DNA of 49,688 bases from Acidimicrobiales bacterium (GTDB lineage Bacteria; Actinomycetota; Acidimicrobiia; Acidimicrobiales; Ilumatobacteraceae), in the NCBI GenBank assembly GCA_947465505.1, contig CANIBN010000002.1:1-49688 (forward strand), in the 5' to 3' direction. Positions 37,533-41,797 of the stretch are shown piece after piece (position 1 is the first letter of the stretch; the number at the start of each line of letters is the position of its first letter). A program made the position numbers and the translations under genes. Under the pieces are notes generated by a model. That model worked only from the letters and a program-made list of their open reading frames with translations. It was not told the DNA's origin and made no database searches.

Positions 37533-39418
37533 TTCTTCGACGACTTGCTCGTTGGGCATCCACCAGCGCTGGAGGGCGCCTGGATTCCGAGGTCGACGAT
37601 GGCTGCGCGAGCGATCTTGTTGAAGACCGGGGCCGCTGTGTTCGCCCCGAAGTGCTGTGCCCCCGGCGGTGGTTCGTCAATCGAGACGAGCACGGTGATC
37701 TGCGGATCCTCGGCGGGGAGAAATCCGACGAACGATGCGTAGTACGAACGACGGCCCTGCTCGTCAAAGTAGGTGCCGTTCTTCTGCGCCTTGTACCCGG
37801 TTCCGGTCTTGCCGGCAATCGTATAACCCTTGATTCCGGCCCAACCCTTGGCAGTGCCCGTGCACACCACATCGCGCATCAGCAGGTTCATCTGCGCGGC
37901 AACCTCTGCGGACACCACGCGCCGGGTCGCCGACGGCATGGTGTCGGTTCGCTTCCCAAAGGGTGACACCACAGACCTCACCAGCTTCGGCGCAACGTAG
38001 ATGCCGCCGTTGGCAATGACATTCACGGCACTCACCAACTGGATTGCCGTTGCCGAGACACCCTGGCCGTATGCGACGGTCACGTTCTCGGTCCCGCGCC
38101 ACTTCGAGTTGGGCCGCAGGATGCCGCGGCTCTCCCCAGGGAAATCCAGCGCAGTGGGCTCACCGAGACCGAAGGCACGCATGTAGGCCTCCTGTTTGTC
38201 CGGCCCGATGCTCTCCGACACAAAGATCGTCCCGATGTTCGAGGACTTCGCAAGGATCTCGTGCACCGTGAGCGGCATCGTGGGGTGAGCCTCGGCATCA
38301 TGGAGCCATTCGTCCCAGTACTTCTTGCGATAGGGCACGACGAAGCTCGTGTTCGTTGTAACCGTTCGCTCGTTCAACGCCGCAGCGACGGTAACGACCT
38401 TGGCCACAGAGCCCGGTTCGTACGAATCGACTGCGGCGTAGTTCCCCGAGCCAACCTTGATCTCGCCGGTCTGCGCATCACGACGCACAGAGGCCATGGC
38501 GAGCACTTCACCGGTCTTGGAGTTCAGCACGATCGCCGATGCGCCGCGTGCGCCGAGCTCGGCCACCTTCGCGGTGAGTGCCTGTTCGGCCTGATACTGG
38601 AGCGAGAGGTCAAGGGTCAGTTCGATGTCGTTCCCGGGAATCGCCTCGATGAGAGCCTTGTGGCTCGAGGGGATCGAGCGTCCCTTCGTTCCTCGGATCT
38701 GGCGCAACTGACCATCCACACCGGTGAGCAACTTGTCGTACTGCTTCTCGAGCCCGCTGCTTCCGATTCCATCGACATCTGCCGAGCCGATGACCCCTCG
38801 TGCGACCTCGCCGTTCGGCAGATACCGACGTGTCTCATCGATACTGCCGATACCGGGAAGCTTCAGGTTCTCGATGACGAGAGCCGTCTCGGCCTCGACC
38901 TCGCGGGCAACGTAGACAAAGCTCGTATTCGGGACGGACAGCTGAGCGAGGAGCGCCTTCTGACGCTTGGCGCTGAAGCCAAGCAGACGAGCCAGCGCAA
39001 CGACCGTCCGTCCCGCATCGACGATTGCACGCGGGTCGGCATAGATCGACTTGGATGCCACCGACATAGCGAGCGGCCGACCCGAACGATCGAGCAACTG
39101 ACCGCGAGGCGCTGGAAGGCGTTCATTGCGTGCGCGCTGCCTGACCGCGTAGGCCTGATACGCCTTCGCCTGCGTGGTCTGCAGCATTCCGACGCGGACG
39201 AGGATGCCGGTGAAACACAGGGCGATCGCGACGAGAATGACCACCATCCGACGCCGAAGGTTCCCGGTGCGGAATTCGTGAACCGTTCTGCTCTCAGCGG
39301 GAGTGCGGCGACGGAGTTGACTCGCCGAACTCGTCCTCTCGCTGCCGGCTACTACACGAAGGTTCGCACTGGAGTCCCGGCGACCACGACGGCACGCCGG
39401 TCCGTCCACCACGCTCAC
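37529..39418 (-). CDS. ftsI: Septal peptidoglycan transpeptidase (PBP3 / FtsI)
   Basis: Class B penicillin-binding protein of 629 residues. A cytoplasmic N-terminus of about 55 residues and one membrane helix precede the dimerisation domain (RQRARNERLPAPRGQLLDRSGRPLA is split across it). The transpeptidase motifs are SVAK (Ser337), SSN (in LAKSSNIGTIFV) and KTG (Lys537 in IAGKTGTGYK). GTG 39418 overlaps the ftsL-like stop by four bases. The C-terminus ends in a lysine-rich tail. Confidence 0.95.
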   Translation of the reverse strand: MSVVDGPACRRGRRDSSANLRVVAGSERTSSASQLRRRTPAESRTVHEFRTGNLRRRMVVILVAIALCFTGILVRVGMLQTTQAKAYQAYAVRQRARNERLPAPRGQLLDRSGRPLAMSVASKSIYADPRAIVDAGRTVVALARLLGFSAKRQKALLAQLSVPNTSFVYVAREVEAETALVIENLKLPGIGSIDETRRYLPNGEVARGVIGSADVDGIGSSGLEKQYDKLLTGVDGQLRQIRGTKGRSIPSSHKALIEAIPGNDIELTLDLSLQYQAEQALTAKVAELGARGASAIVLNSKTGEVLAMASVRRDAQTGEIKVGSGNYAAVDSYEPGSVAKVVTVAAALNERTVTTNTSFVVPYRKKYWDEWLHDAEAHPTMPLTVHEILAKSSNIGTIFVSESIGPDKQEAYMRAFGLGEPTALDFPGESRGILRPNSKWRGTENVTVAYGQGVSATAIQLVSAVNVIANGGIYVAPKLVRSVVSPFGKRTDTMPSATRRVVSAEVAAQMNLLMRDVVCTGTAKGWAGIKGYTIAGKTGTGYKAQKNGTYFDEQGRRSYYASFVGFLPAEDPQITVLVSIDEPPPGAQHFGANTAAPVFNKIARAAIVDLGIQAPSSAGGCPTSKSSKK

Positions 39419-40140
39419 GGCGTCGTCCCGGGGTCTTCCAGCGACATCCCTGCAGAGGACGTGAGTACCGTGCGGTAGGTAGCGGGATCAACCTCGACAA
39501 ACCCCACCGTTTCGGCGGCGACGAGGTTCAGCCGGCTGGCCTCCCGCCCGAGACGAACCGGCGAACGGAGTTCGGCCTGCTGGCGTTCGAGTGTCTGTTG
39601 CAGGGCGCGAGCCTTGTCCACCTTGACGAGCAGTCGGTCGAGCTGAACCTGGTCCTCGGCCATCCGAGTCTGGAACGTGGTGATCCCGAGCATCGCAAGG
39701 AACACCAAGACGAGTGCGGGCGCGAGGATCGCAGCGATGCGACGACGGCGTGGCACCTCGCGGAGATGGTTGCGCAACGACGGGCGGTGACCACGATGGG
39801 CATCTGTCTCCGACTCGACTCGGGGACGAAAGACCTGCACCTTTGCAAGCGCCGCAAGATCCGCAGGGAGGGGTCGGCTCGCCGCTCGACGCGTCAACGG
39901 GCGCGGTGCGGCCACCGGCTGCACTCGACGGGCTCGTGCCGTTGCCGAGGTCGTCGCTGACTGCGGACGCGACTGCGCACGAGTCACCGGACGCGACTGC
40001 GCACGAGTCACCGGACGCGTCTGCGCACGCGTCACCGGACGCGTCTGCGCACGGTTCACCGGACGGGATTGAGCGTTGGTGTCCGGACGCCGGGGGGCGA
40101 GGTCCGAACGACGCTCGAGTCGCTGGGCTGCGGCAGTCAC
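39415..40140 (-). CDS. FtsL-like bitopic division protein with an N-terminal octapeptide repeat
   Basis: A 241-residue protein in the FtsL position between rsmH and ftsI. It has a basic cytoplasmic N-terminus of about 134 residues, one membrane helix (135-156, IAAILAPALVLVFLAMLGIT), then a coiled coil (about 157-200) and a short C-terminus, as in FtsL/DivIC. The cytoplasmic part carries the octapeptide AQ(S/T)RPV(T/N)R four and a half times (residues 23-59). GTG 40140 overlaps the rsmH stop (GTGA). A frame up to 40308 overlaps rsmH and is not used. Typical FtsL proteins are much shorter, so the tail is unusual. Confidence 0.85.
   Translation of the reverse strand: MTAAAQRLERRSDLAPRRPDTNAQSRPVNRAQTRPVTRAQTRPVTRAQSRPVTRAQSRPQSATTSATARARRVQPVAAPRPLTRRAASRPLPADLAALAKVQVFRPRVESETDAHRGHRPSLRNHLREVPRRRRIAAILAPALVLVFLAMLGITTFQTRMAEDQVQLDRLLVKVDKARALQQTLERQQAELRSPVRLGREASRLNLVAAETVGFVEVDPATYRTVLTSSAGMSLEDPGTTP
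39961..40074. repeat. 24-bp tandem repeat inside the ftsL-like gene
   Basis: About 4.5 units of 24 bases, near-identical (CACGAGTCACCGGACGCG and close variants), encode the octapeptide AQSRPVTR. The array is in frame and cytoplasmic in the protein, so unit number could vary between strains without breaking the gene. Confidence 0.9.
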
Positions 40141-41087
40141 TGCGCATCCCCAACAACGTTGATCTTCTCGACGACACGCAGAATCGCTGACGCCGCACGC
40201 GGATTGCGCTCGATCTCCACTCGGGAGGGCACACGCTTTTCGGGTCGCACGATTCGTGCCGTAGCCACCGCACCGCAGCCACAGGGGTAACCGGCCGGAC
40301 AGGTACATCCGCCTGTTGCCGCCGTGCGGAAGGCGTGCTTCACGATCCGGTCCTCGCCCGAATGGTAGGAAAGCACCGCTACACGCCCACCGGGTGCCGT
40401 TGCGTCGATCGCCTGCACCAGTGCTTCGGCGAGTACGTCGAGTTCCTGGTTCACCTCGATCCGAAGGGCCTGAAACGTGCGCTTGGCTGGGTGGCCGCCG
40501 GTACGCCGCGCCGCCGCCGGGATGGCGGCACGCACGATCTCGGCAAGTTCGCCTGTTGTACGAATGGGTCGGTGCGCTACCAACGATTTGGCGATGCGAA
40601 ATGCGAATCGCTCGTCGCCAAACTCGCGCAACACCCGGGCGAGATCGTCCAGCGAGTACTCGTTCACGACCTCCGCGGCTGTGCGTCCCGTCGTGGGATT
40701 CATGCGCATGTCGAGCGGGCCGTCGAAGCGGTACGAGAAGCCGCGCTCCCCCTCATCGAACTGATGGGACGAGACGCCTAAGTCGAAGAGGATTCCGCTC
40801 ACGTGATCGATCGAGAGGGTTGTCATGACGTCACTGAGGGAGTCGAAACGTGCGTGGCGTGTGACCACCCGCTCGGCAACTGGAGCGAGGTTGGTAGTAG
40901 CCGCTGCGAGCGCCACTAGGTCCTGATCGAGGCCGAGGATCCGACAATCGGGTCGTTCCTCGAGCAGTCGACGGGAGTGCCCGCCGCCACCGAGTGTCAT
41001 GTCCACCAACCAGCCCGTTGGGACTTCGGCGAACACCTCGAGAATCTCAGCGAGCATCACCGGTTCGTGCCGGAACTCACCAGTCAT
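40137..41087 (-). CDS. rsmH: 16S rRNA (cytosine-1402-N4)-methyltransferase RsmH
   Basis: SAM-dependent methyltransferase (MraW), 316 residues from ATG 41087. Motifs include FRHEPVMLAEILEVF, VDMTLGGGGHSRRLL, ILGLDQDLVALAAA, GILFDLGVSSHQFDEGERGF, and LSYHSGEDRIVKHAFR. A cysteine group near the C-terminus (CTCPAGYPCGCG) could bind metal; similar groups occur in actinobacterial members. The frame continues to 41183, but the family begins FRHEPVM. ATG 41087 also overlaps by one base (TGATG) the stop of a 59-codon frame described separately. Confidence 0.95.
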   Translation of the reverse strand: MTGEFRHEPVMLAEILEVFAEVPTGWLVDMTLGGGGHSRRLLEERPDCRILGLDQDLVALAAATTNLAPVAERVVTRHARFDSLSDVMTTLSIDHVSGILFDLGVSSHQFDEGERGFSYRFDGPLDMRMNPTTGRTAAEVVNEYSLDDLARVLREFGDERFAFRIAKSLVAHRPIRTTGELAEIVRAAIPAAARRTGGHPAKRTFQALRIEVNQELDVLAEALVQAIDATAPGGRVAVLSYHSGEDRIVKHAFRTAATGGCTCPAGYPCGCGAVATARIVRPEKRVPSRVEIERNPRAASAILRVVEKINVVGDAQ

Positions 41088-41266
41088 CACTGCCAACCCT
41101 TGGGGCCATGGAGAACCTGGGTCGCCCCGCTCACGGGCAGCTCCCCGACCAGCGAGTGCTGCCGGGATTTCTCCCCGGTACAAGCGAGATGGAAGCGGGC
41201 GGAGTTGGGGCTGTCCATCTTGCTGGTCGGGAAGCTGCCGATGAGCGGAACGTCACCGGGGGCCAT
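41087..41266 (-). CDS. Probable small unannotated ORF (59 aa) between mraZ and rsmH
   Basis: A 59-codon frame starts at ATG 41266, 25 bases after the mraZ stop, and ends in TGATG, sharing one base with the rsmH start as coupled genes do. GAGGA lies 11 bases before the ATG. By my count G+C at codon positions 1, 2 and 3 is about 64, 53 and 85 percent, the pattern of a real gene in a high-GC genome. The product (MAPGDVPLIGSFPTSKMD at the start, GATQVLHGPKGWQ at the end) has no membrane segment and I do not recognise it. It contains the two arms of a long inverted repeat. It may be a leader peptide, a small division protein or a chance frame. Confidence 0.5.
   Translation of the reverse strand: MAPGDVPLIGSFPTSKMDSPNSARFHLACTGEKSRQHSLVGELPVSGATQVLHGPKGWQ
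41125..41250 (-). other. Long imperfect RNA hairpin in the mraZ-rsmH mRNA
   Basis: The arms are 41125-41156 and 41219-41250. Of 32 paired positions 26 are Watson-Crick, four are C/T differences that become G-U pairs only in the minus-strand (mRNA) sense, and two are mismatches. The 62-base loop contains two shorter stems (41162-41178, and GATGG/CCATC at 41188 and 41215). It lies upstream of the rsmH start, so a role in translation or mRNA processing is possible. Confidence 0.65.
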
Positions 41267-41291: not shown

Positions 41292-41714
41292 TCAGTTCGA
41301 GGTGCCCTTGATGAGGGCACTTCCCTGCTCGATCTGCTGCCCGTAAGCCACGGGGTTCCAGAGCTCGACCCGGTCAAACGAACCCGCGACGACAACCGCC
41401 GCCTTCGGCTCGATACCGGCGAACTCACGCAGTTCTTGGGTGATGAGGAAACGACCCTGCGCATCGAGGGCAACTTCGACGGTGTCACCGGAGAGGGCGC
41501 GCTGTTGCGACTTGCTCATCTCTCCTCGCTTCACCTTCTCGAGTAGTTCGGCAACCATCTCGTCGAACCCCTCCTCCGTCATCACGTCGATACATCCGTC
41601 CTGGCCTCTGGCGAGGAAGCACCGGGGTTCAAAGCGCGCGCGAAACGCTGACGGCAGCGCCAGTCGACCCTTGTCGTCGACTTGGCGCTCGTAGCGACCC
41701 ACGAAGCGCTGCAT
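41292..41714 (-). CDS. mraZ: Transcriptional regulator and division protein MraZ
   Basis: AbrB-like DNA-binding protein of 140 residues, first gene of the dcw cluster. It starts MQRFVGRYERQVDDKGRLAL, with the second AbrB half at DTVEVALDAQGRFLITQELR. MraZ binds TGGGN repeats in the mra promoter and represses it in other bacteria. The ATG 41714 start fits the family; AAGGAG lies 13 bases upstream. A longer frame to 41768 would extend through the promoter-proximal leader and is not used. Confidence 0.93.
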   Translation of the reverse strand: MQRFVGRYERQVDDKGRLALPSAFRARFEPRCFLARGQDGCIDVMTEEGFDEMVAELLEKVKRGEMSKSQQRALSGDTVEVALDAQGRFLITQELREFAGIEPKAAVVVAGSFDRVELWNPVAYGQQIEQGSALIKGTSN

Positions 41715-41772
41715 TGGTTCCCGGTTTCTCCTTGCCTGAGCGGTGGAGTTCGGTTCCCCGTTCTCCACGTGT

Positions 41773-41797
41773 CCCCATTATTCCCCACTTCTCCCCT
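41773..41797 (-). promoter_or_regulatory. MraZ operator: three TGGGG-type boxes at 10-bp spacing
   Basis: On the minus strand AGGGG, TGGGG and TGGGG start at exactly ten-base intervals (CCCC blocks at 41773, 41783 and 41793 on the plus strand). This matches the known MraZ target of TGGGN repeats separated by five bases. The boxes overlap the -35/-10 interval of the putative promoter. Confidence 0.75.

Follow-up and report, generated by a model that had tools for sequence, protein, structure and literature searches.

What occupies the gap between mraZ and rsmH in the Acidimicrobiia, and does it encode a protein? In the window, i.e. the whole 49,688-nt stretch of DNA from a member of the Ilumatobacteraceae that we analysed, a 59-codon frame (translation MAPGDVPLIGSFPTSKMDSPNSARFHLACTGEKSRQHSLVGELPVSGATQVLHGPKGWQ, followed by a stop) fills most of this gap on the minus strand and runs into the rsmH start codon through a TGATG junction (Table 1). 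The original prediction took the frame for a possible undescribed gene, translationally coupled to rsmH, that could encode a leader peptide or a small division protein. The frame and its junction are present as described, but we find that they do not constitute a protein gene, and that the same nucleotides form a structured RNA. Judging from its matches to PF01795 and to the TIGR00006 equivalog, the rsmH product is the 16S rRNA C1402 N4-methyltransferase, and the ATG of this gene at 41087 is located downstream of the RNA element. Upstream of mraZ, three GGGGA repeats separated by 5-nt spacers (GGGGAGAAGTGGGGAATAATGGGGA; 41772–41796, minus strand) resemble an MraZ operator box. Downstream of rsmH, the frame 39415–40308 contains a 24-bp tandem repeat (39964–40065, 4.2 copies, 94% matches) that encodes repeated PVTRAQSR-like units, and a Pfam search with this frame gave no match.

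The composition that had suggested a gene was reproduced exactly, with GC contents of 64, 53, and 85 percent at the first, second, and third codon positions. An open frame, a skewed GC3, and a tight junction with rsmH are all features that a small protein gene would have, and the frame is also open in one relative of the same genus (L004), where the ATG has been lost and is now GTG. However, substitutions relative to two same-genus genomes are spread evenly over the three codon positions (6/6/6 against L003 and 6/5/5 against L004), single-base indels destroy the frame in L003, and the 59-aa product matched no model in either Pfam or NCBIfam; the frame is therefore judged non-coding. The original prediction had staked the gene on a frame that survives in close relatives wherever the flanking genes are intact, and in L003 it is lost while rsmH (77% identical) and mraZ (91%) are preserved. 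Nor does the composition hold up as a sign of coding: the nucleotides belong to a hairpin rich in G+C, any one reading frame is open in only about half of the homologous elements (50–58 of 97), and element lengths fall in all three residues modulo 3. The codon-position counts and the indels rule out the small protein, to which we give almost no credence, and the conservation of the stretch is accounted for by covariation, i.e. by RNA base pairing.

The evidence for pairing comes from sequences upstream of rsmH, collected from the genome of the window and from 56 relatives (57 genomes in all), most of which have a recognisable homologous hairpin between mraZ and rsmH. In an alignment of 33 of these sequences (A1), 91.8% of the cells are paired and 33 of 43 pairs show two-sided changes; none of 500 shuffles reaches any of the covariation measures, and slid controls are all far lower. 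Within the outer stem, 94.6% of the cells are paired and 23 of the 27 pairs have changed on both sides, while the two helices of hairpin 1 (helices 2 and 3) are paired in 90.3 and 90.9% of the cells, respectively, with two-sided changes in all five pairs of helix 2. RNAalifold provided an independent structure prediction for the element, and the minus strand of the window folds with a minimum free energy of −105 kcal/mol (z = −3.5), a stability equalled by none of 200 shuffles. Compensatory base changes thus exceed chance, which is the mark of a conserved structured RNA, and we consider it practically certain that the element is one.

Table 1. Coordinates in the window of the RNA element, its parts, the frames that overlap it, and the flanking genes.
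Feature	Position	Strand	Evidence or remark
rsmH (mraW)	40137..41087	minus	PF01795 E 1e-102; TIGR00006 equivalog E 2.1e-92
15-codon frame VSGATQVLHGPKGWQ	41087..41134	minus	GTG inside the stem to TGATG on rsmH; predicted from sequence
Reported 59-aa frame	41087..41266	minus	Judged non-coding
Structured RNA element, about 129 nt	41124..41252	minus	Between mraZ stop and rsmH start; covariance model R1 match, 135 bits
Outer stem, 3' strand	41124..41152	minus	Contains Shine-Dalgarno-like G-run and start codon
GGGGAG, Shine-Dalgarno-like, paired in the stem	41141..41146	minus	Stem start codon lies 6 nt further on
Hairpin 2, CCGGG-GAGAAAU-CCCGG with short basal stem	41158..41185	minus	Helices 4 and 5; missing in part of the class
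Hairpin 1, bears the near-invariant loop	41187..41220	minus	Helices 2 and 3 of the covariation test
Loop CUCCGCCCG	41196..41204	minus	Column counts in 97 loci; 16S match
Outer stem, 5' strand (27 pairs)	41223..41251	minus	Alignment A1 columns 2-30 paired with 108-136
mraZ, upstream gene	41292..41768	minus	PF02381 E 6.1e-19

Some candidate interpretations of the fold were rejected. The hairpin is not an intrinsic terminator, as no T-run follows it in the sequence read. A contact between the CUCC of loop 1 and the GGAG of hairpin 2 was also discarded: L043, L051, and L058 lose the GGAG and keep the CUCC, and part of the class is without hairpin 2 altogether.

A hairpin is already known from this slot in other actinobacteria, i.e. 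RF01746, the mraW RNA motif of Actinomycetales (Weinberg 2010, PMC2864571). In Corynebacterium, RNA-seq data locate RF01746 either upstream of the point where mraW transcription begins or at that point (PMC3890552, PMC5784534). The same observation favours a reading in which the Acidimicrobiia element acts as DNA, either as an inverted-repeat site for MraZ or another protein or as a promoter region, and hairpin 2 contains GGGGAGAAAT, which resembles one of the units that make up the MraZ-type box ahead of mraZ. Against this, G-U pairs are common in the element, a start codon holds a fixed position in the fold, and R1 scores 135 bits on the element strand vs 44.8 bits on the opposite one, a difference expected for an RNA read in the rsmH sense. 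We regard a DNA-level element as very improbable.

RF01746 and the element described here are both long G+C-rich hairpins in the same mraZ-rsmH (mraW) slot. RF01746, however, occurs in other taxa and is a single unbranched hairpin with the loop ACUUCCCC, whereas the Acidimicrobiia element has the loop ACUCCGCCCGC and is branched in the window and its near relatives. The RF01746 model had no match in the window region at E ≤ 1 or in the whole window genome at E ≤ 10, and the family is absent from all Acidimicrobiia genomes sampled. Membership in RF01746 was thus rejected: the gathering score (50 bits) is not reached, and the loop and the branching differ. Conversely, R1 scores RF01746 loci at about 9–20 bits, with both strands alike, i.e. 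a generic stem signal. A search of Rfam with the window region returned, at E ≤ 1, only chance matches to eukaryotic and archaeal families, and the same search on four other loci found nothing at gathering scores. Among open-access papers, we found none that describes an element in the mraZ-rsmH slot of Acidimicrobiia.

Other Actinomycetota fill the slot in their own ways. In L059–L066, it is occupied by the RF01746 hairpin. In L315, L316, L322, L326, and L328, which belong to the phylum and lie outside the class, it holds a conserved frame of about 45–48 aa upstream of rsmH with a hydrophobic segment (..LLLALTGSSVGGLLGMVAIATRALGR). This frame looks like a real small gene; no model scored above the cut-off when three of its members were searched against Pfam and two against NCBIfam.

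Searches with R1 detect the element in 131 of the 198 genomes from Acidimicrobiia, always at one locus per genome; where a genome gave a second match, this was the complementary strand of that locus. In about a third of the class no copy was detectable, and some of these absences may be missed copies, as the search filters are strict. In a sample of 296 genomes from the phylum, 15 are positive, all of them inside Acidimicrobiia, and the R1 search found no element in the sampled genomes outside this class. Where the nearest relatives have no element, rsmH often follows mraZ directly or overlaps with it (gap of about −10 to 76 nt in most), and many of the more distant class members carry a shorter form that is without hairpin 2 and retains the loop.

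The association with rsmH is consistent. At each of the 97 loci inspected, the element follows mraZ and precedes rsmH, and a DNA pattern scan of the species-genome collection, which is blind to gene context, yielded at least 119 loci; among the matches listed, 102 are flanked by both genes and 17 show the one gene that their stretch reaches. Across the 97 loci and these at least 119 matches, no readable locus is located upstream of a gene other than rsmH. Record titles in the pattern scan include Acidimicrobiales, Ilumatobacteraceae, Acidimicrobiaceae, and Microthrix. Several metagenome-assembled genomes labelled as Bifidobacterium breve or Acidobacteria (L183, L209, L245, L247; L216, L232, L233) also bear the element beside mraZ/rsmH, and these labels are probably wrong. 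Comparison of sequences firmly establishes both the structure and its association with rsmH, and we hold it highly probable that the element acts in cis on this gene.

How it may act is suggested by the outer stem, whose 3' strand has a fixed site for a start codon, 11 nt from the end of the stem. In 48 of the 97 loci, rsmH itself starts here, and in 10 the codon opens another short upstream frame, as in the window, where the GTG at 41134 opens 15 codons that end in TGATG on the rsmH start. The first 34 loci had the same pattern. The G-rich Shine-Dalgarno-like run is retained across loci, and the pairing of the start codon alternates between lineages (AUG/CAU and GUG/CAC). The coupling to rsmH translation that had been proposed for the 59-aa frame therefore survives in another form, i.e. 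through a Shine-Dalgarno-like run and a start codon held in the 3' strand of the stem. From these features, the leader RNA likely controls rsmH translation: the folded hairpin would keep ribosomes off the rsmH start, and rsmH would then be translated at a low, controlled rate and not automatically with mraZ. Simple burial of the start is not universal, since 39 of the 97 loci have no start codon at this site and rsmH mostly begins further downstream of the stem.

The stem is also very stable, which makes a ligand-operated switch hard to picture, and it could instead be an RNase III substrate. Long stems between neighbouring operon genes are typical substrates for double-strand cleavage, and this one has about 27 pairs, is maintained by compensatory changes, and persists in loci where no start codon falls within it. 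Under such a reading, RNase III or a similar nuclease would cut the stem, separate the mraZ and rsmH messages, and set their relative amounts, with the loop serving the nuclease or a tertiary fold. A cleavage site, however, does not require a near-invariant single-stranded loop or the positionally fixed start codon that half of the loci have, and we consider a role in processing or stability unlikely.

Given a leader that likely controls rsmH, we turn to its near-invariant loop, ACUCCGCCCGC, in which each position of the core CCGCCC is identical in 92–97 of the 97 loci. In the window, CCGCCCG at 41196–41202 equals positions 1399–1405 of 16S rRNA, and the base at 41199 corresponds to C1402, i.e. 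the substrate of the protein encoded next to the loop. When an 11-nt matrix of the loop is run over the whole 16S rRNA, the top match in four genomes is 1396–1406 (ACACCGCCCGU), with C1402 at its centre and a score of 9.2 bits against −3.0 to 3.2 for the next best. The same site is the top match in 7-kb rRNA-operon stretches from three genomes, in one of which two matches far downstream score nearly equal. The singling out of C1402 is confined to the 11-nt core, as a loop matrix 20 nt wide fails to do so. After permutation of the matrix, the score over C1402 is reached in 1.9% of cases (P = 0.019), and after permutation of the consensus in 1.6–3.6%, while ordinary 11-mers from these loci do so in 0.03% (same register) or 0.4% (any register). 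Mimicry of the C1402 site by the loop is thus suggestive only (permutation P of about 0.02–0.04).

This level of significance leaves room for chance, and the match has exceptions: the loop has a U where 16S rRNA has A1398, and this mismatched U is conserved in 95 of 97 loci, i.e. as well as the matching bases; the next CUU of the loop differs from the UCA of 16S rRNA. The leader could then bind some other ligand, e.g. another decoding-centre factor such as RsmI, a ribosomal protein, or a small molecule, with the resemblance to C1402 being coincidental. With its conserved loop and its two conserved hairpins at the apex, the fold does resemble a protein or ligand site, but every readable locus is at rsmH and none precedes another gene, which points to the rsmH product. 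We see a different ligand as a possibility, though a doubtful one.

If RsmH itself is the ligand, it would recognise the loop as a copy of 16S rRNA around its target C1402, and its binding would stabilise the closed hairpin, so that RsmH in excess over free 30S substrate would exert negative feedback. Against this, the human homologue METTL15 touches the RNA backbone in vitro and shows no base specificity (PMC10828496). On the strength of the sequence match, we propose RsmH as the ligand only tentatively. In a similarly speculative scenario, and one we would not yet favour, Acidimicrobiia RsmH would bind a copy of the C1402 site in its mRNA leader, perhaps also methylate it, and in this way repress translation of its own message. 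Our best overall reading, with a probability of roughly 0.6, is that of a class-wide cis-acting leader RNA of rsmH, perhaps with feedback by RsmH through mimicry of its substrate.

Some ribosomal proteins (e.g. L1, S8, and S15) have autogenous leaders that mimic their rRNA sites, and the logic proposed here is alike: the protein would attach to an imitation of its rRNA site within the message that encodes it, and so block the start. It differs in that the product is an rRNA methyltransferase, the binding is putative, and the resemblance covers about 11 nt. In Bacillus subtilis, translation of the stem-loop mRNA of cmpA depends on methylation by MraW (PMC13317604). Both systems involve methylation of C1402 and a message with a conserved stem-loop; there, however, the methylated ribosome aids other genes, whereas here the stem is on rsmH itself.

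The element explains away an apparent small gene that any frame-based annotator would call, and it means that two actinobacterial lineages bear different hairpins in the same mraZ-rsmH slot. If the feedback by RsmH is true, the supply of this enzyme would track the amount of unmethylated small subunits, and the leader would subject an rRNA methyltransferase to feedback through a mimic of its substrate. It offers a testable idea of how the gene for such an enzyme could sense its own substrate.
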